From the IMG/VR virus record IMGVR_UViG_3300020433_000018, positions 1 through 37,853 of that record: DNA of 37,853 nucleotides; one strand, given 5' to 3'. Below the pieces are notes generated by a model. That model made no database searches. It saw only the letters and a list, made by a program, of their open reading frames with translations, and was not told the origin of the DNA. This document shows, piece after piece, positions 1,791 through 19,838 of the stretch (its first letter is position 1; each line of letters opens with the position of its first letter). This DNA is from a virus. A program made the position numbers and the translations under genes.

Positions 1791-2059
1791 TTCGCCTTTA
1801 GCTTACGCAAATTACGGGTAGGCCCACCCCTAGCAGGTGGTGCCACACCCGCTATCTCAGAGCAAAGCTCAGCGTAGCTTTTCATAGAGACGGGTACGTG
1901 AATTACACTTAGAGTTCCCCCGTCACCGTCTAGTATGTTCGCTTCGACAATCACTAGGCCTGCAGCCCCCGTGATACCGAAGTCTGCGCTAACTAACTCA
2001 ACCTCGCCTTTAGGTATGTGACAGAATAGCTGAGCTAGAGTGATGGTTTTCGTAGCCAT
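1787..2059 (-). CDS. Small hypothetical protein of the RT operon (90 aa)
   Basis: The protein starts MATKTITLAQLF and ends in a basic tail (RKLKAK). I chose the ATG at 2059 because AAGGAAG stands seven bases upstream of it. A GTG six bases earlier (2065) overlaps the stop of the 548-aa gene as GTGA and is an alternative start. The stop overlaps the next start as ATGA. The sequence is mostly beta-prone (VELVSADFGI, GLVIVEANIL, LSVIHVPVSM), suggesting a small compact domain. It lies between two large unknown proteins in the RT operon and may be a subunit or binding partner of one of them. No family recognised. Confidence 0.75.
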   Translation of the reverse strand: MATKTITLAQLFCHIPKGEVELVSADFGITGAAGLVIVEANILDGDGGTLSVIHVPVSMKSYAELCSEIAGVAPPARGGPTRNLRKLKAK

Positions 2060-2061
2060 GT

Positions 2062-3708
2062 TCACTTCCTTTTTTGGATCAACTCTTTAAGTAGGTATTT
2101 AGAGAACTTAGCGGCTTCCAAGACCGTGCTAACAACTCGGTACCCCCACTGCCCTAGGTCTCTTTTTTTCTCGTTAGAATACACGAGTGCCCCCGAGCGA
2201 GATCTACTTAGGATACCCAAATCGGTACCGTCCCCACTTATGCCCATAAGTATCTTCCACTCCCTCCCGTCTAAGAACGGAGTTAGGGAGTAAGAGATAG
2301 TAACAGTGGACCCTGACCACCCCCATCCCCCACCTGAGTAGTATTGATACAGGAGAGGTAGTCCAGACATTTGCAGGTACAGCCTGAAGAAGTCATCGTC
2401 TGGAACGGGCATGCCCCCTTTTCCGTAGGCAGGTCCCGTGAGTATCCTGCTAAGGGGCACCTCTGAGCAACTTCCGAACATTGCAGTCCACCCAGACAGC
2501 TCTTCTTCTAGCCTGCCGCCTCCGCCATTCACTCCGTAGAGGCCCTGTGTGCGACTTAGATACTCCTCTAGCCTACGATCGTCGGGCTCTAATACTTTAC
2601 CCTTTATACGCCTATCTTTTAAGTACCCTATGGAGGAGTATCCCCGGGTATAGCCGTAATTACCAGACATGGGAACTTGCGGCGATCTCAGTATAGCGAG
2701 CTTCGCTACTAGGGGTATAGTCTCCGGGAGTTCCCGTACGTAGGCTTCCAATATACTTAGCATCTCCGAATTGGAGAATGGCCTTTGGGTCGGCTTACAG
2801 TAATTATTCCGAAGGTGTAGGTGGCCCTCCAGGTTAGCGCAGTCTGCTCGCTGCGGGCACTGAGTCCGGCACATCTTGGATTGCCTCCTGGATGCCAGAC
2901 TACTTTCAACCCGCTCTCGAATAGTTCCCGCTACTTTAGCTATAGAGCTCTTCCCCATACTGACATAACCGTCTTCTATTAGAGCTGAGCTGAACTCCGT
3001 AATAGAGTCCGGTAGCAAGTAAGAAGCTGGTATTCTAGCCCAGCCGGGCAGGGCCTCCTCTAGCATTTTTGATACTTCCATCTCCACTAGCCCAGTGTAG
3101 GGCTCAGAGCCAACCATACCGGGAATGAGGGTGGTAAGGCATGGCTCAGAACTACCTTTATCCTCACCAACGGAGTGGGGGCAAGTGAAGCAGTTTGCTG
3201 GTTTTTCACCCGCCACATCCAGCTTCTCTGTACGGTAGCACAACTCTGGTAGTACAGAAGCATCCTCCAGGGCATCTCCTTCCGGACCATAGATTGCCCT
3301 CACCGGAGTGATAGTAGCAGGTATGCCTAGAACGCCCCTAGCAATAACTAGAACGGAGGTGTCCGCCGTCTTAGAGGACTGAACTTCTAGACTACGTATT
3401 AGGTAGGTGCAAGCCACTGCCCGACTATCGCGCCATGTGTTTACCTTATAGCCAGCGACCAGGTTACCGGATCTTTTTAGAGACTCAGGACATACTGAGG
3501 CTATGTACTCCCCGGTTATACGGGCCAGGCAAGCCGCTACTTCTGCTTCATTATCTTTAGTACAGACTATTGCAACGTCATCCCTTAGGGGGAGATTGTT
3601 GTACACATAGTGCCCATACCCCCTGTTTAGGGGGCTTACTAGGTTTACTATGCCGTAGCTCTTATCCGGCCTGTATTCCCCAGCTTCGACCAGCTTTAGG
3701 AAGCTCAC
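2062..3708 (-). CDS. Cysteine-cluster hypothetical protein of the RT operon (548 aa)
   Basis: The gene starts with GTG at 3708, overlapping the previous stop as GTGA. Two cysteine groups stand out: C173, C176, C190 (CFTCPH...C) and C280, C284, C290, C304. The second resembles the C-x2-C-x5-C-x11-C clusters of the SNF2 helicase in this window. They probably bind zinc or an iron-sulfur cluster; which one cannot be told from sequence. The C-terminal third is rich in Gly, Tyr and Trp (YYSGGGWGWSGS near residue 460). There is no membrane segment or known enzyme motif. Position two genes after the reverse transcriptase, with overlapping start and stop codons on both sides, argues for a shared function. 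Family not recognised. Confidence 0.8.
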   Translation of the reverse strand: MSFLKLVEAGEYRPDKSYGIVNLVSPLNRGYGHYVYNNLPLRDDVAIVCTKDNEAEVAACLARITGEYIASVCPESLKRSGNLVAGYKVNTWRDSRAVACTYLIRSLEVQSSKTADTSVLVIARGVLGIPATITPVRAIYGPEGDALEDASVLPELCYRTEKLDVAGEKPANCFTCPHSVGEDKGSSEPCLTTLIPGMVGSEPYTGLVEMEVSKMLEEALPGWARIPASYLLPDSITEFSSALIEDGYVSMGKSSIAKVAGTIRERVESSLASRRQSKMCRTQCPQRADCANLEGHLHLRNNYCKPTQRPFSNSEMLSILEAYVRELPETIPLVAKLAILRSPQVPMSGNYGYTRGYSSIGYLKDRRIKGKVLEPDDRRLEEYLSRTQGLYGVNGGGGRLEEELSGWTAMFGSCSEVPLSRILTGPAYGKGGMPVPDDDFFRLYLQMSGLPLLYQYYSGGGWGWSGSTVTISYSLTPFLDGREWKILMGISGDGTDLGILSRSRSGALVYSNEKKRDLGQWGYRVVSTVLEAAKFSKYLLKELIQKRK

Positions 3709-4304
3709 TCTTCCCTATCCAAGTTGATTGCGTTTTTGTCGGAACACTTCTCCCCCAAAGGAACGCAGTGATTTGGATTTTGGACTTTTTGAAGCCCCTC
3801 GGTGCACCGGGAGCACATGTCTCCTATCATCCACAGCTCAGACTTTCTGTCATTTATGACAAGCCCTACCCCCGCATCTTTTATATCCCCCATAGGACCA
3901 GTGTGCATACCCTTGGTATCCCGCATAGACTGAGTGGGGTTCCCCTCCTCTGATATCGCGTAGGAGGCTGCTAGCTTAACCAGCTTGGTATCGCCGGAGG
4001 TAAACCTCTCCATCGGAATAGCCAGGCTTAGTTGGTCTATTGAAATAGCTCCTGCCTCGATAAGACATCTAGCTGATATCATCCCGTACTCCAGCTCTCT
4101 CCTACCTAAGCCCAGTATCTCCAACAACGTGTCGTCCAACCTCTCAATAGGGCTAGACAGGGCTGCCTCGGCTAGCGAAGGCACCTCAGTGATAGATACT
4201 GCAGCAGTAACAGAGGACCTGTCTACGACGTACTGTAGGCCCTCTTCGTCCACTAGGTGCATGGGTATGCCGATCATGCCGTCTTTAGGTTTAGATTGAA
4301 GCAT
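3705..4304 (-). CDS. Hypothetical protein with C-terminal Cys4 site (199 aa)
   Basis: The ATG at 4304 lies inside the 3' end of the reverse transcriptase gene (14-base overlap). It has a strong AAAGGAG ribosome site six bases upstream, also inside the RT gene, so its translation does not depend only on coupling. The first 150 residues are mixed alpha/beta without a recognisable motif. The C-terminus carries C164, C167, C180 and C187 (CSRC...C...C), a plausible zinc or Fe-S site like those in neighbouring genes. The stop overlaps the GTG of the 548-aa gene. As the gene directly after the RT it is the best candidate for an RT partner, but that is inference from position only. Confidence 0.8.
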   Translation of the reverse strand: MLQSKPKDGMIGIPMHLVDEEGLQYVVDRSSVTAAVSITEVPSLAEAALSSPIERLDDTLLEILGLGRRELEYGMISARCLIEAGAISIDQLSLAIPMERFTSGDTKLVKLAASYAISEEGNPTQSMRDTKGMHTGPMGDIKDAGVGLVINDRKSELWMIGDMCSRCTEGLQKVQNPNHCVPLGEKCSDKNAINLDREE

Positions 4305-5313
4305 TAGATACTCCTTTCATCAAGCTGTTAAGCTTTTGAAGCTTTCCGGCTTCCAGATACTGAGCGTAGTAGGTCAGCATACCGGAAACGGAAGCTATGT
4401 ATTCTTCAACATTTAGCCCCCTACCGTCCTTAACGGCCTCCATTGATATAGCGGCTCTACCGGATCTGGAAGCCCTTTCTAGGTTGTATATCCTAGCTTC
4501 TAGCTTCCTCCTGGATACCCTCGACATTCTTGGCGTCTTACCATTCACTATGAGGCCCAGAACTCTTTGCTGCTCCGCCTTCCCCGCTATGGAAAACTTA
4601 TGCAGCTGGAACCCCTCCGGAACTAATGGCTGCGATTTTAGAAACTCTAGAAAAGCGTGGCCCGCTGTATAGCTTTTGAACTTGAAGTACAAGTTATCCG
4701 AATACCTGAAATAGTCTATAAATCCGTATTTTTGCCTCCACTCTTCCACCTTAGGGTCTATAAACTTACATCCTATGCGGTTAGAAATCATTGGAGATCG
4801 GGGGCCACCTTGTACCAGCCTACCTCCCCGCAGCATCACCCCTACCACCTTGGTTACCTGGTCTTCAGATAGCAAGTCTTCGCCCGCTGAGGGGTCGTAG
4901 CTGGACCCCGGCGCGGTCGCGTTATCTCCGTTGTAGTACTCTCTAACTAGCTTAGATAGGTGTCTGTGAGTGATGCTGCCGTAGAAGTTAACTATATCTG
5001 CGTGCACCAAGCAGTGGGAGTTACACATGCGGGAGGCAGCCTTGCAGATATTGGTACCCGCCTCGTATGCGGCGCTCCTACCGGCAGGCATAGGCTTGTA
5101 TACTACATCCCCAATGAGTCTCTGCACCTTCTTGAGGATTGGGGCCACTGAGTACACTACTCTACCACTTTTGATAGTCACCGCATTGTATCCCAGATAC
5201 TCTCCGCTACTATCCCCTTTCCTTAGTAGGGACAGCGCTAACCCGAAGGACTGATTGGATATTCCAAGTGCCATCGGGATAGCGCGGGTACTACTATCTA
5301 TAAACGGGGACAT
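4291..5313 (-). CDS. Reverse transcriptase, retron/DRT-like, YSDN active site
   Basis: This 340-aa protein is an RNA-dependent DNA polymerase of the bacterial RT superfamily. Motif A is HADIVNFYGSI (D106), motif B is QGGPRSP (168-174), motif C is YFRYSDN (Y204, D206, N207), and a retron-type thumb block VLGLIVNGKTPRMSR follows at 251-265. The usual YxDD box is YSDN, so the second aspartate is Asn. The QGxxxSP motif B argues against a diversity-generating retroelement RT, which normally has SQ there. Length fits a stand-alone RT without maturase or nuclease domain. The ATG at 5313 lies two bases after the stop of the VWA gene, leaving no room upstream for a retron-type ncRNA. Four unknown genes follow in the same operon. 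The substrate RNA is unknown. RT identity is very likely; the biological role is open. Confidence 0.92.
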   Translation of the reverse strand: MSPFIDSSTRAIPMALGISNQSFGLALSLLRKGDSSGEYLGYNAVTIKSGRVVYSVAPILKKVQRLIGDVVYKPMPAGRSAAYEAGTNICKAASRMCNSHCLVHADIVNFYGSITHRHLSKLVREYYNGDNATAPGSSYDPSAGEDLLSEDQVTKVVGVMLRGGRLVQGGPRSPMISNRIGCKFIDPKVEEWRQKYGFIDYFRYSDNLYFKFKSYTAGHAFLEFLKSQPLVPEGFQLHKFSIAGKAEQQRVLGLIVNGKTPRMSRVSRRKLEARIYNLERASRSGRAAISMEAVKDGRGLNVEEYIASVSGMLTYYAQYLEAGKLQKLNSLMKGVSNASI

Positions 5314-5315
5314 TA

Positions 5316-6947
5316 CTAGTTTTCCATTTTAAGGAACCTGCCGTAGCCGGTGTCCCCCCGAGCTTCGCTAGTATTGACCCCCCATCTATGGTTGAGGGAG
5401 GGCACGCTGCCTCTAGAGGTGATGAGCCACAGCACCTTATTAGCCGGGTAGGCATCCCTAAAGTGGTCTTTAGGCATAGGAGCCTCTCCGTCAGTAGCAT
5501 AGATGAGCAGATCTGGTTTCTTATCGATGGACCACTCATCTTTTCTCAGATTAATAGCGAGCTCGAAGGGGGGATCGAACCAAGTCCCGCCGCGGCCCTT
5601 AACACTGAGGTCCCGCTTATCATCGAGATCATAGAGGTCGCAGATAGAGGTATCGCACTCACACACTGTGACTGCTACATCCCCCATCTTTTTTAGCGCC
5701 ATTAGCTCTGCGAATATCTCTAGAATCTCCCCCCGGCTAACACTGCCAGATGTATCAATAGCTAGTAGGATATTCCTCTTACGTAGCTTTTTCCTGCCCC
5801 GGCGCAATGACCTACCAAAGTCTGGCTTACGGGATGGTCTTGTGAAGGTAGGAATTTTTTCCGCTTTGCTGGATCCTGCGAAGCGCCTTAGTTCCGTACG
5901 CCAGTTGACAGTGGGTTCTCGTAGGGACGCCTCGATCATCTCCTGAAGGGAGCCGGGTATTACACCCCTACCCTTAGACGCCTGCTGAGCTATAGACATT
6001 ACCTTCTTAAACTCTCGGCGGAGGGAGTTGATCTCCTCAAGGGCGTCAGAAGGATCTTTTTCCACCGTCTCTATCAACTTCTTTTCCAGTGGGGTCAGGG
6101 GTCCACCGCCGGGACCTCTACCCCTTTCTGGGTCAGGCATAGATTCCACCAGCTTTCTAAGGTTACCCGGCTCCCCTAGGCGGTCTTCAGAGGTGTCAGA
6201 GTCAGAATTACCCCCACCTCCCTCCGCGTCTTCGCCTTTCTCAGGTTCATTAGAAGGATCCTCACTGCTGGAGCTTGAACCTTCGGGCTCCTCTTCGGAT
6301 GAGGGCTGGCCCTGCTCATCGCCGCCTTCTAGATACTGCTTTACGAACTCTTCCCCGTCATTATCTACACTTTCGCAAATTAGACGGACATAGGTTTCTA
6401 AGCTCTTTAGTACGGGAAAGTCCCGATCCGTAGGGTGGATGCCTCGGTAACTCCCGTAGGGCCTATTGTAGTCTGGCGAGATGTGCTCTGTAGGGGAGCC
6501 AATATCGCAGTGCAAGAACTCTAGAGAGAACGTCTTCATGTCGTCAATAAGAAAGGAGTTCAGTGCGTAATCCGCAGCAAGGTGAATTACCTTTATGGCT
6601 TTAGCCCGGTCCTTACCCTCAAACTCCATTAGGATCATAGCCATGCGGGGGATGTGGTCTAGTAGCAGGTGACCCATCTCATGCCAGAGCACTCCAGACG
6701 TAGCCTTCATGCTTAGCTCTTTGACCATGTTATCGTTGTACAAAAGTACATAACGCCCATCCGAGATGGTCACGGCCATAGTAGGGATTTCTTCCGATTG
6801 CTTAATCAGCAGCGAAGACGCTATGGTAGAACAAATACCCCCAACGCTTTTACTCCCAGCCAGTATGGCTAACCTCGTATGGAGGTTATCATTTAGCGTG
6901 GGCTTTTGGGCTACCTTAAGCCTGTTTAGATTCAAACTTCTTCTCAT
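5316..6947 (-). CDS. VWA-domain protein with HEMGH metallopeptidase-like domain (DUF2201 type)
   Basis: I place the start at 6947 (MRRSLNLNRLK), behind AGGAG at spacing five; a longer frame to 6998 would overlap the divergent gene. The N-terminal domain has the zinc-protease signature HEMGH at 89-93. A low-complexity acidic Ser/Glu/Gly linker occupies roughly 210-260. The C-terminal VWA domain shows the MIDAS motif DTSGS at 398-402, followed by GGTWFDP and LLIYATDGEAP. This layout matches the putative metallopeptidase plus VWA-like family (DUF2201), usually encoded beside a MoxR-type AAA ATPase; one lies at 8618-9796. Such pairs are thought to remodel protein or metal-enzyme complexes. The reverse transcriptase follows after two bases, so the two are probably co-expressed. 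Family assignment is firm, function in the phage unknown. Confidence 0.88.
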   Translation of the reverse strand: MRRSLNLNRLKVAQKPTLNDNLHTRLAILAGSKSVGGICSTIASSLLIKQSEEIPTMAVTISDGRYVLLYNDNMVKELSMKATSGVLWHEMGHLLLDHIPRMAMILMEFEGKDRAKAIKVIHLAADYALNSFLIDDMKTFSLEFLHCDIGSPTEHISPDYNRPYGSYRGIHPTDRDFPVLKSLETYVRLICESVDNDGEEFVKQYLEGGDEQGQPSSEEEPEGSSSSSEDPSNEPEKGEDAEGGGGNSDSDTSEDRLGEPGNLRKLVESMPDPERGRGPGGGPLTPLEKKLIETVEKDPSDALEEINSLRREFKKVMSIAQQASKGRGVIPGSLQEMIEASLREPTVNWRTELRRFAGSSKAEKIPTFTRPSRKPDFGRSLRRGRKKLRKRNILLAIDTSGSVSRGEILEIFAELMALKKMGDVAVTVCECDTSICDLYDLDDKRDLSVKGRGGTWFDPPFELAINLRKDEWSIDKKPDLLIYATDGEAPMPKDHFRDAYPANKVLWLITSRGSVPSLNHRWGVNTSEARGDTGYGRFLKMEN

Positions 6948-6952
6948 TTTAA

Positions 6953-6961
6953 CTCCTAGGA
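6953..6961. promoter_or_regulatory. Shared ribosome-binding site for two divergent genes
   Basis: The sequence CTCCTAGGA reads AGGAG on the minus strand, five bases before the VWA start at 6947, and TAGGA on the plus strand, seven bases before the start at 6969. The two start codons are only 21 bases apart, so promoters for both genes must lie inside the opposite gene. Confidence 0.6.
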
Positions 6962-6968
6962 ATGTCTC

Positions 6969-7943
6969 ATGGATATAAATACTGATGTAACTCAGCACTT
7001 ACTTAGGGAGGTACTGCAGGAGTACCCCGAGCTTGCAAAGCATGCTGAACTAGCTAGTAGCGGGCCGGAGGTCAGGGATGGTCTTCCCCTATCTTCCTTT
7101 GCCGATCCGCACAATAGACATTATCCAGTACACACGCCGGAGCATGCGATACTGTCTAAGGCTTATACCACAAAAGTCGCGAATGTTGCGCCTCACGTAG
7201 TGGCCCGAATTGATGATGCATTAGACCTGTTCGGATTAGAGCTGCCTGAGTCTGAGGCGGTCAAAGAGGCTGCCTCTGCAGAGCTTGATTTTCTTCTACC
7301 TTCTCAGAAAAAGATACCAATAAGGGATGCCTCTGATATTCCCTATGCGGAAGCAGCTCTTTTGAGGAATAGGTCTAAACTTCAGGTAAAGACCGCAGCA
7401 TCTGCGGCGATTAAACTAGTAAAGTACGCAGCCGATGCGGGGCTTGATGTTTCCCCGACCGTACTATCTATGGCGGGCATAGCTCAGTGCGATACTGATA
7501 AAGCAGCTATGTGGATAGAAGCTAGAGCTGATGCCGTTAAAGAAGCTTCGCACTCCGAAGCTTACATGCAGGTCTCTAACTTCGTTAGAGGCTTAAGTGA
7601 GGGGGCCACACGGGCTGACTTGACCAAGCTGGCTTCCGCAGTGGAGGAGTTGGATATTTTATCAGGGCTAACTCAACATTATGGGAGGAAACTTCCTGAT
7701 CCTATGGCTACAGTCTTCAACACCAAAGTAGCCATGCAGGCTTCCATGGATCTAGGAGGCTCTATGGTACCAGTCTCTAAGCTAGTAGCTATGGGGCCTG
7801 AGATCATTGGAGATATCTTAGGGGATGACATTGTACCTGAGATCAGCTCTGATGGAGAGGTAGACCCCCAGAAGCTCATGGAGATCTTAGAGACGCTACC
7901 CAAAGACATGAAGGAGCTACTCGCTTCTAAGGTAGGTATGTAG
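6969..7943 (+). CDS. Phage protein with FADPxxRxYPxHTPEH-type motif (324 aa)
   Basis: The start at 6969 has TAGGA seven bases upstream. Residues around 38-65 contain LPLSSFADPHNRHYPVHTPEH, a motif I recall from many phage and prophage head or structural proteins of unassigned function. The remainder is a helix-rich, Ala-rich protein with few cysteines (one, in AQCDTD) and repeated predicted amphipathic helices, plus an acidic C-terminal part. It is the first of two plus-strand genes set between the VWA and MoxR genes; the second begins one base after its stop. It could be a minor virion or head-associated protein. Function not established. Confidence 0.75.
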   Translation: MDINTDVTQHLLREVLQEYPELAKHAELASSGPEVRDGLPLSSFADPHNRHYPVHTPEHAILSKAYTTKVANVAPHVVARIDDALDLFGLELPESEAVKEAASAELDFLLPSQKKIPIRDASDIPYAEAALLRNRSKLQVKTAASAAIKLVKYAADAGLDVSPTVLSMAGIAQCDTDKAAMWIEARADAVKEASHSEAYMQVSNFVRGLSEGATRADLTKLASAVEELDILSGLTQHYGRKLPDPMATVFNTKVAMQASMDLGGSMVPVSKLVAMGPEIIGDILGDDIVPEISSDGEVDPQKLMEILETLPKDMKELLASKVGM

Positions 7944-7944
7944 C

Positions 7945-8595
7945 ATGAGGCTGGCCGGGGACAGGTATTCAAACACGGAATACGCAAGGAAAATTCTGTG
8001 CAGGTCCGCCCGGACTCCGGCCACTCCTATAGTAGTGGCGGCTGATATTATAACCGGAGGCAAGGTTTTTTTGTGGGAGTACGAGACCACCTTTGACTAC
8101 TTAGAGGATAATAATTGCTTGCCTAATGAGATGTTACGGGACCAGTTGCTGGCGGGCGTAGCAGCGATCCATAGTAGCAGCTTCCTATGGGATGACCGGG
8201 CATTTAGTGCTATAGCAGAGTCTTTTAACTCAGATCTTGCTATACCGGAGATAGTTGACCCTTTAAGGCCCGCCCAGCTTTGCTACGCCTTAGATGAGTT
8301 AAATCGCTTATACTCTATATACGAGAATGCTACGGACCTCACTCCCTTGTATGGGGAATCGGTTAAGGTTTTTGTGGCAGGATGCGCTGCGGTGCATGGA
8401 TTTCCTAAGCCCCCGAAGAACCTCTCTTTTGTTAGTGATGTTTATCACAGGTTCTTCGATATCCCAGAGGACTTAGCGGACACGGCCACTAATACAGTCC
8501 TAAAGAGGAAAGAAGCGGAGATAGCCGCTTATTGCTCTGCTATGAACAAGCTAAGCAGGGATATGCTGTCTCAGCTAAAAGAGAGCGGTAGCTAG
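7945..8595 (+). CDS. Hypothetical protein (216 aa)
   Basis: The ATG follows the previous stop by one base, with GGTAGG inside the 3' end of that gene as a likely ribosome site, so the two are translated together. The product is a soluble alpha/beta protein (MRLAGDRYSN...). I see no membrane segment, zinc site or catalytic signature. The segment VFVAGCAAVHGFPKPPKN near 155-172 is its most distinctive stretch. It ends 22 bases before the convergent MoxR gene, with no clear terminator hairpin between them. Family not recognised. Confidence 0.7.
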   Translation: MRLAGDRYSNTEYARKILCRSARTPATPIVVAADIITGGKVFLWEYETTFDYLEDNNCLPNEMLRDQLLAGVAAIHSSSFLWDDRAFSAIAESFNSDLAIPEIVDPLRPAQLCYALDELNRLYSIYENATDLTPLYGESVKVFVAGCAAVHGFPKPPKNLSFVSDVYHRFFDIPEDLADTATNTVLKRKEAEIAAYCSAMNKLSRDMLSQLKESGS

Positions 8596-8617
8596 TAGTG
8601 CTACAGCCCTCGAGCCA

Positions 8618-9796
8618 TTAGAAGTTACGACCAGCTTTCTTGATCTGCTCGATCGTAGCGTAGAGCTCCCGCCACTCCTTGGGGTGGTGGGTATTGATAG
8701 CTGTGGTCAGCTCATCGTGCCTCTTCCTGTGGGTGGCATCTCCACCAGTAGTCATACCTATCAGGTGCTTAACGAGGAGATGCTTGGTCTCTTCGGTCAG
8801 CATAGCTGCCAGCTTGATGAATCCGGTAGCGAACTTGTCCGGCTGCCAGTTATCGGTAGCTGAGAGGTACTGGCCCACCGAGTTCACGGTCCTAGTGACC
8901 ACATCACTACGGCCGTCCTTCTTCATCTTCTCGATTACGGGCTTTACCTTGGAGAACTTCGTTAGTACGTCCATAGGGTGTACCGAGTACTCCTTGTTTC
9001 GGGACCAGTCACAGAATGCAGCAGCGTGATCTGACCCGATGATAGAAGCGATTGCAGGCTCTACCATGCCGGCTGTCTCACCAGACACCTTAAGTAGGTT
9101 GCTGACCTTGTGCCAGCTAGCGGGGGTCGGGTAGAGCTTTTTAGCAGCTCTCGCCTTCTCATCTAGCAGCGCTTCAGGATTAATTTCAATGAAGGAGATA
9201 ACCTCCTCCGACATCCCCTCAGCTCTAGCATAGCGGAGCCACCCACCTAGAGTATGTTCTACCCAGAAGTGGCAACCTCGTCGGCGCCACGCAGGATCAC
9301 TGAGCATATCAATAGTCTCGTAATTCCCGTCATCTGGGTTGCACGCGCACATAACGTAGAGGTTATCTGGCAACTTCTCACCGTTAAGGGTGCGGTCACC
9401 GATCAGAGACCACGCCACGGCTAGTGTAGCCTTGTCCGCCCGATTGATCTCGTCCAGGAACAGGATAACCGACTTACCTGACTTGGCCTCTTGCACAGCG
9501 TTGTACAGCTTCTTTGGAGGCAATACCTCAAAGTACGGCACTCCCTCTGTCGGACGCTGGGGGATGCCGAAGCTAGCCTCGTCCTCCTGAGACATGGTGT
9601 AGACGTACACAGAGGCGTTTATGGCATCCCCCGTCTGATGCGCCATAGCAGTCTTACCGATACCCGCCCCGCCCCACAGCACTACTACGTTGTGGGATGC
9701 CGTGGTATGTATTAGGCTCTTAGAAGGCCCTACTGCTACTGTAGGCATTCCGTGTAGCGTCCCGAAGGACTTATTTTCAGTATTCAGGTTCTGCAA
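8618..9796 (-). CDS. MoxR-like AAA+ ATPase
   Basis: This protein has Walker A GGAGIGKT at 42-49, Walker B LFLDEINRA at 112-120, sensor-1 region CACNPDD at 150-156 and an arginine-rich DPAWRRRGCHF at 167-177. Together these fit the MoxR group of AAA+ ATPases, which act with VWA proteins to remodel target complexes. The expected VWA partner is encoded at 5316-6947, but two opposite-strand genes separate them. The long frame opens with TTG at 9796, behind AAAGGGA. An ATG at 9748 (MPTVAVG) keeps the whole P-loop and is an alternative start. The TTG start lies one base from the start of the divergent terminase gene, so the regulatory sequences of each must overlap the other gene. Confidence 0.88.
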   Translation of the reverse strand: MQNLNTENKSFGTLHGMPTVAVGPSKSLIHTTASHNVVVLWGGAGIGKTAMAHQTGDAINASVYVYTMSQEDEASFGIPQRPTEGVPYFEVLPPKKLYNAVQEAKSGKSVILFLDEINRADKATLAVAWSLIGDRTLNGEKLPDNLYVMCACNPDDGNYETIDMLSDPAWRRRGCHFWVEHTLGGWLRYARAEGMSEEVISFIEINPEALLDEKARAAKKLYPTPASWHKVSNLLKVSGETAGMVEPAIASIIGSDHAAAFCDWSRNKEYSVHPMDVLTKFSKVKPVIEKMKKDGRSDVVTRTVNSVGQYLSATDNWQPDKFATGFIKLAAMLTEETKHLLVKHLIGMTTGGDATHRKRHDELTTAINTHHPKEWRELYATIEQIKKAGRNF

Positions 9797-9797
9797 T

Positions 9798-11297
9798 ATG
9801 ATTTCCCTTTCCAGGAAAGCTCTAGCTGAATCGATTCTTCAGCTAGACGGTGATGAGTTCTCCCTAGGTGACTATCCATTTTACGATGCCCTATACACTG
9901 GGGAATACTCTAGAAGTATCCTTATGTGCGGTAGGCAGGTCGGTAAGTCCGTGTCTGCTGCTGCGTTTACGGTATGTGAGGCCGTCGCGGTGCCTCACTT
10001 TAAAACGCTTTACATATCTCCTACACAGAAGCAGACTTCCACCTTTAGTAACACCCGCATCAGCAAGCTGATTCAACACTCCCCGGACCTGAGGTCTATG
10101 ATGGGGAGGGTTCTCAGTGATAACGTTTTCCTTAAGGTACTGGGTAACGGGTCGGAGCTAATCTTTAACTATGCTTCCGACGATGCTGACCGAGTTAGAG
10201 GTATCTCTGCAGACCGCGTTATCTACGACGAAGTGCAGGATATCGACTACCAGTCTGTAGTACCGGTAATTAACGAGTGCCTCGCCAACTCCCGGTTTGG
10301 GTATGTCTCCTACATGGGCACCCCCAAGACTATGGAGAACACCATTCAGTTTATCTGGGAGCAGTCTACCCAGTCTGAGTGGTGTATTAGGTGTGGTGCT
10401 TGTGGGAAGCGCTCTTTCTACCGTAGCTCCCGTGGCATAACCGATAAGGGCCTCGCATGCTTATCATGCGGAGCTCTCGTCGATGTTCGCGACGGCACTT
10501 GGGTAGATATGGCGCCCAACGCTAGAACCCAGGGGTTTCACATACCTCAAGTTATCTTACCCCAAAACCAACTCCCACACCGGTGGGAGAGAATCACCCA
10601 CAAGCTTGAGACTTATCCCGAAAGTAAGTTCAACAATGAGGTTATGGGAGTCTCTGACTCCGTGGGTTCTAGGCTTATCGGTGTAGATGACCTCGCGGCC
10701 TGTTGCTCCGACTCGCCGCCGCCCGCTGCTGGCTTTACCTGCGGCGGGGTAGACTGGTCTGGCGGAGGTACCTCTGGCGTATCTCGCACAGTGGCCTGGG
10801 TGTTCTCCAACTCTCCTGGCGGGACCTTCAACACCGTCGATTACAAAGTGTTTCCCAACCAGAACCCCGTTTCCACCGTAGATGAACTAGCCACCTTCTT
10901 CTCTAGGTATCGCGTAAACCTCGTAATAGGTGATGCTGGAGAGGGGGCGCTGGCAAACTCACTATTACTTAGCAAGCTGCAGTGCCCCCTCTACCAGCTT
11001 CAGTACGGAAGCCAAACTAAACCCCTCAAATGGAATGGTATCGACCGCTACACTGCGGATCGAACCACTCTCATTGACTGCTTCTTTTATGACATCAAGA
11101 AAAAGCGTATAGCCTTTCTGGCCGAGCCAAGAATGTCCGAAGCTTTTGAGGATTTTCTGGCTCTGTACGAAGAAGTCACTCCTGCTGGGAAGAAAGTCTG
11201 GCGACATTCTCCTAGCAAACCGGACGACTGCTTACACGCCGCCGTCTTCTCATGGGTAGCCTGCAAAGTGCTTACCCACGATATGACTTTTTACTAG
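9798..11297 (+). CDS. terL: Terminase large subunit (DNA-packaging ATPase/nuclease)
   Basis: The start at 9798 (MISLSRKALAES) gives 499 aa; the same frame stays open to 9690, but that part overlaps the divergent ATPase. The ATPase domain has Walker A GRQVGKS at 45-51 and Walker B VIYDEVQD at 141-148. A zinc ribbon is inserted at about 196-224 (CIRCGAC...CLSC). The C-terminal RNase H-fold nuclease shows its three acidic sites: VDWSGG, VIGDAGEG and KPDDCLHA. The protein packages DNA by docking on the portal, encoded 13 kb away at 24330. No small terminase was recognised. The 3' end runs directly into the structured repeat array. Its ribosome site is weak (CAGGTT). Confidence 0.93.
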   Translation: MISLSRKALAESILQLDGDEFSLGDYPFYDALYTGEYSRSILMCGRQVGKSVSAAAFTVCEAVAVPHFKTLYISPTQKQTSTFSNTRISKLIQHSPDLRSMMGRVLSDNVFLKVLGNGSELIFNYASDDADRVRGISADRVIYDEVQDIDYQSVVPVINECLANSRFGYVSYMGTPKTMENTIQFIWEQSTQSEWCIRCGACGKRSFYRSSRGITDKGLACLSCGALVDVRDGTWVDMAPNARTQGFHIPQVILPQNQLPHRWERITHKLETYPESKFNNEVMGVSDSVGSRLIGVDDLAACCSDSPPPAAGFTCGGVDWSGGGTSGVSRTVAWVFSNSPGGTFNTVDYKVFPNQNPVSTVDELATFFSRYRVNLVIGDAGEGALANSLLLSKLQCPLYQLQYGSQTKPLKWNGIDRYTADRTTLIDCFFYDIKKKRIAFLAEPRMSEAFEDFLALYEEVTPAGKKVWRHSPSKPDDCLHAAVFSWVACKVLTHDMTFY

Positions 11298-11312
11298 CTT
11301 AGAACTAGTTTT
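11293..11312 (+). terminator. Weak hairpin at the terL 3' end
   Basis: ACTAG, a seven-base loop, CTAGT, then TTTT overlap the terL stop codon. The stem is only five base pairs, so it is a weak terminator at best. On the minus strand the same element is the first hairpin of array unit 1. Confidence 0.3.
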
Positions 11313-11373
11313 ACACGCAGGCCCTAATCAGGACTGCCTTAGATGGGATATAGGTCCTATCCCTATCTCTGCC
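11294..11373 (-). repeat. Array unit 1 (80 bases)
   Basis: This is the shortest complete unit and the last one in minus-strand order. Stem 1 is degenerate (ACTAG/CTAGT) and overlaps the terL stop. Stem 2 is GCAG/CTGC with an inner CC-pair stack. Stem 3 is GGGATA/TATCCC with a closing GAT/ATC. Confidence 0.6.
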
Positions 11374-11461
11374 CTAGTCGCTGCCCTACGGGCAGCAGAT
11401 GCACGCACCCTTTAAAGGTGCCTTTGCGGGAAACCTGGCGTGTCGCCAGGCCCGCCCTCTC
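11374..11461 (-). repeat. Array unit 2 (88 bases)
   Basis: Stem 1 is GCTGCCC/GGGCAGC with a three-base loop. Stem 2 is GCACC/GGTGC. Stem 3 is CCTGGCG/CGCCAGG, closed by GCGGG/CCCGC across a three-base bulge. Confidence 0.65.
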
Positions 11462-11569
11462 CTAGTCGCCGCCCTACGGGCAGCATACACACGCAGCCCT
11501 GGGAGCTGCCTTAGTGGGAAGAGGTTTCTCGCAGCCGGCTGAGGCTCGAGAATACACAACCACTCTGCA
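11462..11569 (-). repeat. Array unit 3 (108 bases)
   Basis: Stem 1 is GCCGCCC/GGGCAGC, with one pair that is C-A on plus and G-U on minus. Stem 2 is GCAGC/GCTGC. Stem 3 is longer and imperfect (TTCTCG with CGAGAA), closed by GTGG/CCAC. Confidence 0.65.
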
Positions 11570-11676
11570 CTAGTCACCGGCATAATGCCGGTATAAACAC
11601 GCACCCCTAGAGGTGCCCTTATGTTGAGATGTCCGGAAAGATCGTCTTCCCGATCGTCCGGACATCCAACCCTCCA
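11570..11676 (-). repeat. Array unit 4 (107 bases)
   Basis: Stem 1 is ACCGGCA/TGCCGGT with loop TAA. Stem 2 is GCACC/GGTGC. Stem 3 has a ten-base outer helix, GATGTCCGGA with TCCGGACATC, an inner GATCG/CGATC helix, and closing GTTG/CAAC. Confidence 0.65.
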
Positions 11677-11789
11677 CTAGTCACCGACATAATGCCGGTA
11701 TTAACACGCAGGGCTGTTAAGCCCTGCCTTACGTGGAAGAGCTCACCCGGTAAGTGTTTTTCTTACCGGGTGAGCTATGACTCCCTCCA
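11677..11789 (-). repeat. Array unit 5 (113 bases)
   Basis: Stem 1 is ACCGACA/TGCCGGT, again A-C on plus and G-U on minus. Stem 2 is GCAGGGC/GCCCTGC. Stem 3 is a perfect 15-bp helix, AGCTCACCCGGTAAG with its complement around a seven-base loop, closed by TGGA/TCCA. Confidence 0.65.
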
Positions 11790-11823
11790 CTAGTCGCCCC
11801 ATCCTGCATGCGCAATGGCGGGA
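11790..11823 (-). repeat. Array unit 6, partial (stem 1 only)
   Basis: Only the CTAGTC box and a divergent stem 1 (around CCCCAT and ATGGCGGG, with two mismatches) are present. On the minus strand this is the 5' end of the array, next to the promoter-like motif at 11823-11838. Confidence 0.5.
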
Positions 11824-11838
11824 CGTAAGCTTATACCA
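11823..11838 (-). promoter_or_regulatory. Promoter-like motif beside the RNA array (13/16 match)
   Basis: The plus strand reads ACGTAAGCTTATACCA, matching 13 of 16 bases of the motif at 24287 and 28499. On the minus strand it reads TGGTATAAG, an extended -10-like box pointing into the array. Next to it, at 11837-11846, is the palindrome CACTATAGTG. Confidence 0.4.
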
Positions 11839-11861: not shown

Positions 11862-14800
11862 TTAGCTAACCTCGCCGTAGGAGGGACCGATCTCTACGTC
11901 ATAGGGCATTGACACCGGGACTTCTGGAAACTCAGTTTTGATAAACCGGTCTACCTTTTCTTCCAAAAACCTTTTTAGCTTAGGGACTTCTGACTTAGGC
12001 ATTTCCCACACCATAGAGTCGTGTACCGTTAGCATCATCCTGCCCCTAATCTCTTGCATGCTCTTCCATAGATTAATCATCGTGCGGATGACTATCTCAC
12101 CACAGAAGCCCTGCACTAGGTAGTTGATGCCTTGCCGCTCGCACCTGGCTGCATACCAACCCCCCGCCCCAGCCGTGTAGAACCTTCTCGCCCTACCTGT
12201 AGGGGTACGGAGTATATTGTCGCTGCGTACCTTGGCTTTTATCCTATCGATGTAGTCCTTAATCCCAGGAAAGCGATTGAAGAACATAGCCATCAACTTC
12301 GCTGCCTCATCCTCCGAGATCTTTAGGTCCTCGCTTAGTCCCTTTACCCCTGTGCCGTAAATAAGACCAAAGTTCACGCTTTTAACTCGCTTACGCATAG
12401 TGGTGTACTTCTCTCGCAGCTCTGCTTCCTCTGGGTTAGTAGAGTTCCTGTAGTACTGGATGTCTTCGTACTTCTCCCCGAATATCTCGCTGGCTACCCA
12501 GGAGTGAACGTCCAAGCCATCTTTGAGAGCCTGTATCAGGGTGGGCTCATCTGCGTAAGCTGTGAGTACTCGGATCTCTGCACCACCGAAGTCCGCATCC
12601 ACTACTACTAGCTCTTCTCCAACCTCCCACCTGTACTTTTCCCGTAGCGCAACCTCCGTTGCGCTAGCCCCAGACGAGGTATCAGTGGGCACAAACAGTT
12701 TCTTGATGTTTATCCCGCCCAGCTTCTTCGATAAGGTTTGAATATTGGGGTTGGATGAGCTGGTCCTTCCGGTAGCAGTGCCATTGATATGGATGGTCCC
12801 GCGTAGTCTGCCATCATAAGCCGCACCTTTCTTAATACCTAGTACAAAAGTAGTAAGCGCCTTGGATGACTTTCTAACTTTGAGTAGGAGATTAGCTGGG
12901 TTGTTGGACAATAGCTCATCCCGCATCTCGTCCGTGATATCTTCTAGACCATTAGCCTCTAAGTACTCTTCTACATCCCTAGCGAGAAGGAGCTCGATGT
13001 ACTTTTTGAGGGATTCTTCGTCTGCGGAAGCCTCACCCGTCTCTGTTGTCTTAACCCTAGGAAGTCCGTACCCCGCTATGAACACTTTAGATACTAGCAA
13101 TTTCTCTTGTATATCTACGTGGTCAGTCGTCAATCCTAGGTCTTTAGCCACCCTAGCATAGAAGGCGGCGCTCCACTCTTTTATCTTACCCTCTAGGGAT
13201 CTCTGACAGTATTCTAGGTAGTCGGGATCGATCCGGATCCCTTCGTACTGCATCTGAGCCAGCATCTCAGTAGCAGGCAGGTAATGCCGGGACATTAGGG
13301 ATATCATAGGGGCCAAGCCCTCAGCTTTAGCCTGCTTAGGGGAGTGCTCCTTCCAAGCCCTAAGCCTCTGAGAATCGCTGATCCTCCAAGTTAGATCGGC
13401 GTCTACCGCAGCGTACTCCAGCATCATCTGCATAGGGGGCTCTTCGTAGGTCACTCCGTCGTAGTGGGGGTTTCCATCCCAGCGGTGCCTATTTCTATGA
13501 GTAAAGAACTTCTTCAGGCCAGCCTTGGCTGCGGACATTTCCTTCTTACTCTCTGCTGCCCACCCTTTTATAGCCGCAATAGCTCCGTCTATCGCGGCTT
13601 TGTTTGCAGCAGTTTGCCCCTTCTTCATCTTTCTGAGCTTGGCCACGTACTTCTTAGAAGAGGATTCCACCGTAGTAAGATCAAAGCCGTGTCCGATAGG
13701 GGAGGTATCTGGGTAATACAAGCCATCTACTTCATTAGGGTCAGTAGAAGCTACCCTAGAAAATGACTCGTCGAACTCTCGAACTACAGCGGCATCAAGC
13801 TCTTCTTTGAGACTTCTCTCGTAACCTACTAGCTCGGGGTGCTCTTCTACTACAACGGTCTTGAGGCTATAAAAGCTCTTTTTATCCTCATCCAGCATGT
13901 GCTCACCAAGCATACCGTCCCACTTAGTGTTCCTCACTGGACCGAATTTCAGCATGTAGTCCATGTTCATCCCTGAAACTTCTTCTATAGTAGCCTCTAG
14001 ATCAGGATGCACAGCGCAAGCTTCCGCAGTCCTCAGCATGAGAGGATACAAGGCCATGCTGTAGTCGAACTTGTAGTTCCACCAGGTTTTAGGGTTATCG
14101 CAGCCCAAAACCTTTAGTATCCAGGGGATAACCTCGTGGAACTCGTAGGGGGAGTCCTTATGATCTACCGGCACAGCGAATGATTTACCCGGCCCCACTG
14201 ACCCCGATAGAGCAATAATTCTAGCAGTCTTGGACCACTGCCAGAGAGTAGTGGTCTCGAAGTCCAAAGCCATCATGCACTGATTAGCGGGCTTACTTCC
14301 TGTAGAGTAATTCGCGTACTCGTCACAGATAGCTATAGCATCCTCCAGAGAGGCGGGGATGTCGAAACCCTTTATTAGCTTAGGTACATCTAGAGCCTCA
14401 GCGCTGGACCCCGCTGCGGCTACGGCAGCTTTCTTGAGGTCGTTCTCTACTAAGCTATACAAGCCTGGGTTGCGGAAGAACCGAGCTAGGCTGAAAGTAG
14501 GCATAACCTTGAAAGGCCTGCCTGCAACCTGCACTGTTACTACCCTACCCCGTATCTCTTCAGCGTTCGCATCTAATCCCAAACCATTTAGGGGGCGGCT
14601 ACCAAAGCACACAATAATCTTTGGATTCAGGTTGTGCACTTTCTGATATATAATGCTGGTAGCGCAGGCATTAAAAACCTCTTTAGTATTCTTACCGGGG
14701 CAACAAGCCCCGTACATATAGTGTGCACGGGCAGCCATTGCTTGTAGTGGCCCGTTTACCTTGCCGGAAATCCTTTCCGAACTAGCCATCTGGCTTACCA

Positions 14801-14960
14801 TATGCTTTACCAGACGGCCTGCGTTGTCGTTGAAAACTCCGCCCCATGGTGGAGGAGCCTCACCTAGAAATAGTACATCACAGGGGCTGGCGCCCACCCC
14901 AACTTCAAAGGTAGATTCCTTGAAATTGGGGCAGGATTGACACCCACTGGGCTTCATCAT
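11862..14960 (-). CDS. Family-A DNA polymerase with N-terminal uracil-DNA-glycosylase-like domain
   Basis: I place the start at 14960 (MMKPSGCQSC), where ATGA overlaps the primase stop and AGAGAGG stands six bases upstream; this gives 1032 aa. Residues 1-180 form a family-4 UDG-like domain with C7, C10 and later cysteines (C86/C87, C99) for an Fe-S cluster, GEAPP at 33-37, and PTFSLARFFRNP at 154-165 where active members have a His motif. A 3'-5' exonuclease follows: LDFETT near 232, NYKFD, and YAAVDAD. The polymerase domain has motif A DADFGGAEIRV, motif B KSVNFGLIYG and motif C LTVHDS. I recall UDG-polymerase fusions in phages such as SPO1. This is the replicative polymerase, expressed with the primase-helicase upstream. 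Confidence 0.93.
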   Translation of the reverse strand: MMKPSGCQSCPNFKESTFEVGVGASPCDVLFLGEAPPPWGGVFNDNAGRLVKHMVSQMASSERISGKVNGPLQAMAARAHYMYGACCPGKNTKEVFNACATSIIYQKVHNLNPKIIVCFGSRPLNGLGLDANAEEIRGRVVTVQVAGRPFKVMPTFSLARFFRNPGLYSLVENDLKKAAVAAAGSSAEALDVPKLIKGFDIPASLEDAIAICDEYANYSTGSKPANQCMMALDFETTTLWQWSKTARIIALSGSVGPGKSFAVPVDHKDSPYEFHEVIPWILKVLGCDNPKTWWNYKFDYSMALYPLMLRTAEACAVHPDLEATIEEVSGMNMDYMLKFGPVRNTKWDGMLGEHMLDEDKKSFYSLKTVVVEEHPELVGYERSLKEELDAAVVREFDESFSRVASTDPNEVDGLYYPDTSPIGHGFDLTTVESSSKKYVAKLRKMKKGQTAANKAAIDGAIAAIKGWAAESKKEMSAAKAGLKKFFTHRNRHRWDGNPHYDGVTYEEPPMQMMLEYAAVDADLTWRISDSQRLRAWKEHSPKQAKAEGLAPMISLMSRHYLPATEMLAQMQYEGIRIDPDYLEYCQRSLEGKIKEWSAAFYARVAKDLGLTTDHVDIQEKLLVSKVFIAGYGLPRVKTTETGEASADEESLKKYIELLLARDVEEYLEANGLEDITDEMRDELLSNNPANLLLKVRKSSKALTTFVLGIKKGAAYDGRLRGTIHINGTATGRTSSSNPNIQTLSKKLGGINIKKLFVPTDTSSGASATEVALREKYRWEVGEELVVVDADFGGAEIRVLTAYADEPTLIQALKDGLDVHSWVASEIFGEKYEDIQYYRNSTNPEEAELREKYTTMRKRVKSVNFGLIYGTGVKGLSEDLKISEDEAAKLMAMFFNRFPGIKDYIDRIKAKVRSDNILRTPTGRARRFYTAGAGGWYAARCERQGINYLVQGFCGEIVIRTMINLWKSMQEIRGRMMLTVHDSMVWEMPKSEVPKLKRFLEEKVDRFIKTEFPEVPVSMPYDVEIGPSYGEVS

Positions 14961-17900
14961 GTTGTACCTCTCTGATCCCACGAATCCAGCATCTCGGTGA
15001 TATCATATATGGTGATATCTGATGCGGTGATTCCCGGACGTAGCACCGAGGTTAGCCCTCCAAGGCGACGACGTACCGTGTGGTAGTTTTTAGTATTAGG
15101 GCTGGAGTCTCCCATCCGTTTTAGTCTCTCTGCGGTATCCTTACCATACCGGTTGGATCCCCTAAGCAACTGTCTAACTACGTCTGGCCACATTACAATT
15201 AACCAGCGCTCTCGGTTGCCGTTGTTTAGATCCTCAACATAAGATAGCCCGCAGTCCATCTCTATTAGGCTGTGCCTCGCAGTGGGATCGGATAGTATAG
15301 TCCGAACTGAGGTGTTACGGCTTTCACTTCCCGGGCGCTTGTGCTCTACCTTCGAGCTTAGGATTGTATCCAGTAGGTCCTGCTCCTGCGTAGACGTAGT
15401 GATTATCTCTAGGAGCTCTTTTTTCGATTTTATAACTCTTAGTATGTAGGAGTGCGGGTTCAGCCCAACACAAGCTACCATGGCTGCGGTCACTACTACC
15501 CCATCCAAAAACCTAGAGGGTACGGTTGCCCCAACTTCTTTACTTAGCGCATCCATTATAGTGGGCTGGCTGTAGGTGGCGCGTAACTCTGTTAGCTTTT
15601 TGAGGTACTCAGGGGCCAGCCTGTACATCCCAGTAGACAACGCCCTTCGATACTTCTGAATAGTTTCCTGCCCGAAGGTATTGAGCATAGTAGTATGTGG
15701 GTCACTTTTAGACTCACAACGTACCGTATGGATCTGCATGAATCGGCTTACATCAGCCTCTTCCCTCAAGTAGTTAATCGCGCCAGCCCAGATCTGACAT
15801 CGTAGAGTGTATACGGTTGCCTCTTTGCTCTCTACGTTACCACGTGTGATTCTACATGCTGGACTGTTAGTTAACCCCCTGATATCCGTTAATATTCCAC
15901 GTACCGCTTTGGAGTGCGGGTCGTCCCCCTTGTCCTCGAACTCGTCCAATGCGGCCCCTAGCGCGCAGTTGTTCATGTCCTTGCGGAATCCAGCAGTGCT
16001 GTATCCCGACTGAACATCCGACGAGCACTCTAGTAATCTCACCGTGGGGTCGGAGCCCGCAATAATATCTAGAAGCTTAGATTTACCTGTGCCTCTAGCC
16101 CCATTGATTAGCGTGTACAGCTGCCTAGGTAAGCAGCTAGAGATGGAATTAACCATCATAGCTGCAGCAAGGTACTCGCAGTCCTCCAAACCACCTTTTA
16201 GCGTCCAGCCCGTATAGATTACAGATACTAGAAAGTCATAGACATCCGAGTGCTTTACAGTGTTACCGTGTTCCAAGTCTAAGCAACTAGCAATCTCGGT
16301 AGACCAAGGTGCCCGGATGATGTTGAAGTACCTATCTCCTAGACGGGGGCCATCCAGGCAGGTCCACTCTAAGGTGCATTCATCCGTGTATCTTCCTATG
16401 TACACCTCGTAGCCGTTAACTAGGACCCAACAAGGCTCCGGCCCCGCCCCGAAGTCGTGCTCTACATAGTGTGCGCCAGCTTTGGTTTCGGTTAGGCTGC
16501 GCGTAGTAGGTAGTTCCCCGCATAACTGCGAAAGTGCTATCTGCATATATCCTCCCACCGTGGTGCTCTGTTCTGGTATTTTTATTGTACCGCCCTTGGA
16601 GGTCGTTATGATTGCCTGCGGAATGCCTACGGTACTTTTTAGCCAATAGAGTATGGACCCTAAGTCCTGAGATATTTGAGAATAGAGCTCTGTTGTCCGG
16701 CTCATTCTCCACTCTCTAGGCTCCTTCTTCTTCCTGTGCCAAGCCCGGATGAGAGTGTCGCTACCCTTGCTTCCATCTATTCCAATGAAGAAGAACTCCT
16801 CCCTCAAGGCTTGTAGTATCCTAGCTATAAATCCCTCCTCGCTGTCGTCTCTCCCTACGACCAGCTCTAGTATAGTCCCTATAGTTAGGGTGCACATTTT
16901 GCTTACCGCTCTAGCGTAGGCCATCTGTGCTTCAGGCTCCCTTAGGCAGCTCCCATCTTGCCCTATAGCTTCCTTCTGCCCCCTTAGGTCGTCTGGGTCT
17001 AAGGACGCTAACTTAGCCTTAGTAACACCAGCCAGCCATACGTGCGCAGCTTTGAAGTTAACCCACTTCTGATGAGTGCCTTCTGTTCTTTTAGCTGTTA
17101 GAGCTGATAACCAGGTCTCCCAGCCATGCTTCTTAATAGCCTCATCGGGATCTTTAGCCTCTACTTCTGGTGGCCAAGAAAATACCTTAACCGGCATGGA
17201 GGTCTGAGACATGATGATCTTAGCTATAGCGTCCCCGCCGTGATCCGGGTGGTCACATACCAGCATCACTTCTGATACGCCGCAGTACTCTTTAAGAATA
17301 TCCGGGCTGGATACAGATGCTCCGCCACAGGCAACTACTACTTCGTAGCTAAGGCCACTCTGGAACTCAACCATGTGTGCTAGTGCGTCTGTCTCCCCCT
17401 CCACGATCATGGCTCTCTTACCAGCCTTTTGTGCCCCCCACAGCATCGCTGAATAGAAGGGTAATCCAAAGAAGCCTATGGTCTCCTCATTCGCATCCGG
17501 GACATAGTGTGTGGATCTTGCTCCATCTGGTCGGAGGAAGTCTGATCTCAGCTTGAACCTAGTGATCTCAGTAGGAGATTTATGATACGCTAGGAGTAGT
17601 GCCCCGGTATTAGGTCCCGTCATAGAGGATTCTAAATAGGAAATAGAGTGCTCCAATATATCCTCAGGTAGATGCTTTACTAGTTCTACCCTAGGAGGCA
17701 GTACGCCTATCGGAAGCTTACCTAACGTGTCATCTGTGGGGACTCCCCTAGACTCTAAGAAGTCTAGCAGCGGCACTGCGTATTTATGTCTTTCAGAGTC
17801 TTTTGACTTTGCCGCCATCACCAGAGCAGTATTGCAGGCGGACAGTATCCCCGCTTTAATAGTCTGGCGGAGCTCCGCTACGTGCATATCCTGCACTACT

Positions 17901-19076: not shown

Positions 19077-19838
19077 TTAGATATCGAAGCTAGGGGTTTC
19101 GCCCACTAGCTCGCTATCCTTATTCTCAAGCTGCCTAGTCTTGCGCTCCTCGATCTGGGCCAAGCCCCGATTCTCGAGTCGCTGACGCAGCTGATTGTAG
19201 TCGTTCTCCATGTCTCCCTTGAGCTTGAAGCCCGCCTGAACTAGGTCTTCGGGCACAGGAGTGGCTGACAGTGCAATATCGTACTGTAGCCAGCTGCGAC
19301 CGTTAGCCTGCTTCTTTGTCGTAGACAGGACAAAGCGCTTAGCCCATAGGGGTCTGGAATCCCTCTTAGCCAGGCGGAATAGTGCTTTGCCAGAGGACAA
19401 GCTGGTCTTGGAGAACGTAGCCTTAACCAGCTGATACCGCCCTTGATGCTCTACAACGCCGAATACATTGATATTATCGAAGCACGCGGTGCGCTGACCA
19501 TTACGCCAAGGCAGGTGGTCGCAATCAACGCAGGCGCCATACTTGCTGCCCTTCTTAGTGTCTAGAGATGAGCAGTCAATCATGGAAGTGTCTCCGTCAA
19601 ACTTGATGCGGCCCTTGTAACCTAATACCGGGACGAACTCCACGGAGCTCCCAAAGCTAGTACCTGCGATACAGAGGTCCCCCGGCCGAGCAGCATCCGG
19701 ACACCAGTCCTTGCCCATGCTAGCCGGATGAACTATCTTCATCACCGGGACCCGGATGCCACCCTCCTCACCGATTAGACCGTCCGTATTCGCGGTGACC
19801 CCCGCAATGATAGTCTTGTAGAGATCGGAATCACTCAT
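19077..19838 (-). CDS. Putative ssDNA-binding protein with zinc-type cysteines
   Basis: The 253-aa product has a cysteine group C89, C103, C106, C119 (CVDCDH...C), many beta-prone segments, and an acidic, polar C-terminal tail ending in a hydrophobic-acidic tip (SELVGETPSFDI). This resembles phage ssDNA-binding proteins such as zinc-containing gp32-type proteins. Its place at the head of the nuclease, primase and polymerase genes supports that role. No single motif is decisive, so the call rests on architecture and context. The ATG at 19838 overlaps the ATG of the divergent sigma factor in the four bases CATG; AAGGAAGG lies about 12 bases upstream. A strong hairpin follows the stop. Confidence 0.5.
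   Translation of the reverse strand: MSDSDLYKTIIAGVTANTDGLIGEEGGIRVPVMKIVHPASMGKDWCPDAARPGDLCIAGTSFGSSVEFVPVLGYKGRIKFDGDTSMIDCSSLDTKKGSKYGACVDCDHLPWRNGQRTACFDNINVFGVVEHQGRYQLVKATFSKTSLSSGKALFRLAKRDSRPLWAKRFVLSTTKKQANGRSWLQYDIALSATPVPEDLVQAGFKLKGDMENDYNQLRQRLENRGLAQIEERKTRQLENKDSELVGETPSFDI

Follow-up and report, generated by a model that had tools for sequence, protein, structure and literature searches.

What does a phage do with a tandem array of structured repeats placed beside its terminase gene? The question is raised by a marine phage genome, the IMG/VR virus record IMGVR_UViG_3300020433_000018, of which positions 1 to 37,853 were analyzed on one strand (the window, 37,853 nucleotides (nt) in length). 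The array lies between the genes for the terminase large subunit (terL) and DNA polymerase A (polA), and the same window encodes a reverse transcriptase (RT) of the retron type. The array probably represents five retron-type msr-msd RNA templates for this phage-encoded, retron-like RT. The units are assigned to the RT as its cognate RNAs because relatives keep the RT and carry tandem units built on the retron msr-msd plan.

Tandem array between terL and polA

Five full units of 80-113 nt each and one partial unit are arranged in tandem at 11294-11829, and the units are delimited by CTAG boxes at 11294, 11374, 11462, 11570, 11677, and 11790. A sequence-only reading of this DNA had reported five full units and one partial unit between terL and the polymerase gene, and they are present at the coordinates and in the place it gave. 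The array is also the 3' neighbor of polA on the same strand, with the end of the polA gene 33-70 bases upstream of the array RNA. Two IMG/VR relatives, L003 and L007, whose terL is 98% and 96% identical, carry the same type of array with units gained or lost. Counterparts of window units 1, 4, and 5 are found in L003, and counterparts of units 3, 4, and 5 together with two other units are found in L007. The features of the locus are as follows.

9690..11297, plus strand: terL, convergent with the array
11294..11373, minus strand: RNA unit 1, on the terL side, with a terminal hairpin that overlaps the stop of terL
11374..11461, minus strand: RNA unit 2, CTAG-delimited
11462..11569, minus strand: RNA unit 3; a comparable long hairpin occurs in the L007 unit at 6605
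11570..11676, minus strand: RNA unit 4; long hairpin essentially identical in L003 and L007
11677..11789, minus strand: RNA unit 5, polA-proximal; hairpin base conserved, tip different in L003 and L007 with pairing kept
11683..11699, minus strand: triloop hairpin of unit 5, 7 base pairs (bp) with an NTA loop; proposed msr recognition hairpin
11576-11592, 11468-11484, 11380-11396, and 11294-11309, minus strand: equivalents of the triloop hairpin in the other units
11708..11727, minus strand: stem 2 of unit 5 (GCA...TGC), proposed a2-loop-a1 stem
11740..11776, minus strand: long hairpin of unit 5, an inverted repeat; proposed msd (reverse-transcribed part)
11790..11829, minus strand: leader hairpin or incomplete unit (GTCCCGCC...GGGGCGAC) that lies between unit 5 and the polA stop and is conserved in both L003 and L007
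11862..14981, minus strand: polA, directly upstream of the array on the same strand

The array had also been described as non-coding. A 72-amino-acid open reading frame (ORF) at 11386-11604 on the minus strand spans unit borders; it is judged not to be a conserved gene, because it crosses these borders and because L003 lacks the units concerned. Rfam and transfer RNA (tRNA) searches of the array returned nothing. When window-type units were sought by a pattern scan of IMG/VR, array-associated matches were found only in L003 and L007; 42 other stretches, which were not inspected singly, look like scattered chance matches. Named phages gave no DNA match to the window and no match to its RT.

RNA folding, strand, and covariation

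The folding of the whole array was compared with that of shuffled sequences. The z values were -9.6 on the plus strand and -10.2 on the minus strand, and 0 of 100 shuffles folded as well. The 13 units from the window, L003, and L007 were then aligned and compared on both strands. The 7-bp triloop hairpin pairs in all 13 units on the minus strand, where it includes 12 G-U pairs that are A-C mismatches on the plus strand. This indicates that the functional RNA strand is the minus strand, which is the polA strand. The plus-strand RNA of the sequence-only reading is rejected for the same reason.

Five of the seven pairs of the triloop hairpin are changed on both sides among the 13 units. The units are kin, so the shuffle figures for this hairpin (0 of 2000 re-pairings as good) and for stem 2 (3 of 5000 shuffles as good, with 54 of 56 cells paired, at 7 bp in eight distinct hand-chosen units) are not strict probabilities. 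When only 5 bp of stem 2 were counted, the pairing was not significant (460 of 2000 shuffles as good). The double-sided changes of the hairpin and the pairing of the 7-bp stem bear out the compensatory stem change that had been proposed from the sequence. When stem arms of neighboring units were paired with each other, the result was almost always poorer than with local pairing, and the window stem is thus local.

The long hairpin of unit 4 has essentially one sequence in the three phages. In unit 5 the base is kept, and the tip is completely different yet paired in each of the three. This is the pattern expected for a part that is under changing selection and whose pairing matters.

Retron-type reverse transcriptase

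The RT, which was overlooked in the sequence-only reading, is encoded about 6 kilobases (kb) from the array.

4291..5313, minus strand: retron-type RT, 340 amino acids, motif YSDN, identified by profiles, PDB matches, and fold

The best profiles were the PADLOC retron types III-A (1e-29) and XIII (1e-28), and the PDB sequence matches of the protein were retron RTs. The AlphaFold2 model (12-sequence input, pLDDT 80) was searched with Foldseek, and the top 16 matches were all retron RTs. These data place the window RT within the retron clade. Almost all close relatives have a Y[S/C/F]DN motif as well, and YxDD or YADD is found in distant ones. In the RT tree the YxDN and YxDD rows cluster, with 3 changes compared with 10.9 in shuffles.

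Conserved association of RT and array in relatives

The RT is kept in place in relatives whose terL identity ranges from 98% to about 34%, and in most of them a structured array occupies the interval from polA to terL. The conserved order is RT, VWA gene, two short genes, AAA ATPase, terL, and polA. All array-bearing relatives whose contig extends far enough carry the same RT. In 38 of the 78 loci retrieved with a terL profile, the RT lies some 3-8 kb upstream and is encoded on the other strand from terL; many of the remaining loci are truncated contigs.

Structured polA-terL gaps of 0.6-1.1 kb were found in L005, L006, L008, L019, and L023. The polA strand was searched for 7-nt inverted repeats (a1 and a2) in which the left arm is followed by GC and the right arm is preceded by TG or CG. 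Such a1-GC...TG-a2 places numbered 7, 5, 6, 6, and 6 in these five relatives, respectively, compared with shuffled means of 0.19-0.85; some of the places overlap, and the shuffles preserve base composition only. When a hairpin was also required, the matches were concentrated between polA and terL, on the strand of polA. In all five, a1/a2 inverted repeats thus enclose units, and the plan of most arrays in relatives is a1-GC...hairpin...TG-a2, with a1/a2 sequences that differ per unit and CTTG or a similar sequence just before the right arm. After the left arm comes a triloop hairpin, mostly with an NTA loop, that matches the one in the window, so that this hairpin is common to window-type and standard-type units.

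One or two units were found in L034 and L041. The more distant L025 (terL about 32% and RT 25% identical) contains five or more units whose a1/a2 repeats measure 8-11 bp and end in AG, although its raw unit count is modest (9 compared with 4.6 in shuffles). Units like those of L025 occur in L086, L087, and L089, only or mostly on the polA strand. In distant YADD relatives, a structured region is found at a different location, about 500 nt downstream of the RT. In all RNA-anatomy and RT-fold features testable in relatives, the system resembles a retron. The earlier statement that the array fits no family is correct in that Rfam gave no match at the gathering score; the kind of element is nevertheless known, through the retron-type RT and the relatives on the msr-msd plan.

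Window units and the retron plan

The order of junctions around the window stem is the same as in relatives: template end UAAG, stem, G, short spacer, and triloop hairpin. In unit 5, stem 2 is flanked by TAAG, the proposed template end, and by GTG, which holds the candidate branch G. This GTG is invariant among the window units and, as the candidate site of the priming G, would correspond to the a1-GC of the relatives. Only the connection differs: in the window and in L003 and L007, a small loop closes the stem, and the break in the chain falls between hairpin and template. The window units therefore appear, on balance, to be circularly permuted retron RNAs. Such an order is mechanically possible, because a retron whose msr and msd are supplied in trans on separate transcripts still makes RNA-linked DNA (RT-DNA) (PMC8989520).

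A mechanism can be proposed on this basis. The array would be transcribed on the minus strand, probably as a 3' extension of the polA transcript. The RT would bind the conserved triloop hairpin of each unit, prime from the G directly after the a1/a2-like stem, and copy the adjoining long hairpin into a small RT-DNA. Several RT-DNAs of differing sequence may be made at once, and they would most likely act as decoys or inhibitors of host defense factors or of other DNA-binding targets. This anti-host role is tentatively preferred to a self-killing defense, because the RT is retained in the phage clade almost as a core gene, no effector is evident, and the hairpin tips change.

Weighing of the alternatives

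Several points weigh against the retron-template interpretation. The catalytic motif of the window RT is YSDN and not YxDD. The RNAs are separated from the RT by 6 kb instead of adjoining it. No effector was recognized, and the genes beside the RT gave no convincing defense-family match. The window units lack the canonical a1/a2 repeats that enclose a unit, and a standard a1/a2 detector returned zero units in the window array. L021/L022, L072, L076, and L079 have the RT without an array visible at the polA-terL junction. The system is not filed as a canonical retron, because of the motif and because the RNAs are not beside the RT. The noncanonical units and the distance to the RT, together with the strong RNA-level structure, are also what would be seen if the units were small folded transcripts that worked at the RNA level, as decoys, sponges, or ToxI-like or polymerase-binding RNAs, and were unrelated to the RT. 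This is considered unlikely, as the units of relatives follow the retron plan with the RT conserved alongside, and the triloop hairpin is common to the window and the relatives.

The remaining explanations are weaker. The position beside terL, the palindromes, and the gain and loss of units in close relatives would suit a DNA-level element such as a packaging site, a replication origin, or a recombination hot spot. The pairing uses G-U on one strand only (12 pairs, with no A-C), which makes DNA-level packaging sites unlikely, and distant relatives have their structured region beside the RT instead; a DNA-level element is therefore given very little weight. Slightly less still is given to a stack of transcription terminators, which the many hairpins between the convergent terL and polA might suggest, since just two terminator-like sites were found (shuffle mean 0.5), the long hairpins have no U tracts, and the conserved boxes and unit order would be left unexplained. 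Diversity-generating retroelements (DGRs) are common in phages, and the RT might belong to one with the array unrelated. This is the least probable explanation: no repeats of at least 30 nt were found in window positions 1-10000, and the fold search ranked DGR RTs much lower than retron RTs. The templates for the phage's own RT are thus the preferred explanation of the array.

Comparison with known systems

Retrons are known from bacteria, as defense systems with one RNA per RT. The window RT shares family and fold with bacterial retrons (RT types III-A and XIII; Ec86/Eco1 structure), and the units of relatives share with them the a1/a2 inverted repeats, the G right after a1, the short hairpin, and the long template hairpin. 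Unlike bacterial retrons, the system is phage-borne in conserved synteny, has many tandem RNAs per RT located kilobases from it, shows YxDN in its clade, lacks a recognized effector, and has permuted units in the window. Tandem repeats of structured RNA are also seen in ToxI of type III toxin-antitoxin systems. ToxI repeats are pseudoknots of about 36 nt beside a toxin gene, whereas the phage units are hairpin RNAs of 80-113 nt and their conserved partner is an RT. A phage-borne RT with an RNA template is likewise shared with DGRs; however, no template/variable repeat pair was found in window positions 1-10000, and the RT is nearer to retron RTs. In the literature searched, no description was found of a phage-borne retron array or of an arrangement with several RNAs per RT.

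A wider view is evenly balanced in our judgment: a multiplex viral retron of a broad uncultivated phage group, with a retron-descended near-core RT, template arrays that reach six or more units, exchangeable template hairpins, a panel of small DNAs during infection, and an RNA permuted in the window lineage. If true, the retron system would be turned round, in that a virus would produce many small custom DNAs. Multiplexed templates, permuted retron RNAs of use in making RT-DNA, and a YxDN RT active site would be available as natural examples, and the role of RTs in phages would become directly testable.

Neighboring genes and further structured regions

The genes downstream of the RT gave no matches in diverged relatives. 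A VWA (DUF2201) gene at 5316-6998 and a MoxR-type AAA gene at 8618-9796, both on the minus strand, form a pair that is conserved beside the RT in most relatives. The frames of terL and the AAA gene overlap on opposite strands (9690-9800). Distant relatives match terL only from about residue 37, and the true terL start may be later. Residues 30-174 of the polA protein, at its N-terminus, match the uracil-DNA-glycosylase superfamily, an apparent fusion. On the plus strand, proteins at 28548-32912 and 33881-35656 match multi-subunit RNA polymerase, and a sigma-70-like factor is encoded at 19837-20499. These genes suggest that the phage supplies transcription machinery of its own.

Near the YADD RTs of L097, L128, and L132, at about 4100-5000, lies a structured region that has the motif GGCCCC(C)GACCCCAG in all three and may represent an ancestral RNA in single copy; the sole Rfam match was a tRNA call in L132 at 4418-4482. 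L054, an RT-bearing phage without a polA-terL array, has an AT-rich stretch at 14773-15682 (G009 54773-55682) full of ACTTTCCGGAAAGTA-like palindromes, possibly an origin. In L058 (G007), long hairpins alternate with CTTTA-loop hairpins at 7740-8900 near tRNA-Met, and this is probably the array of L058 at a different place.
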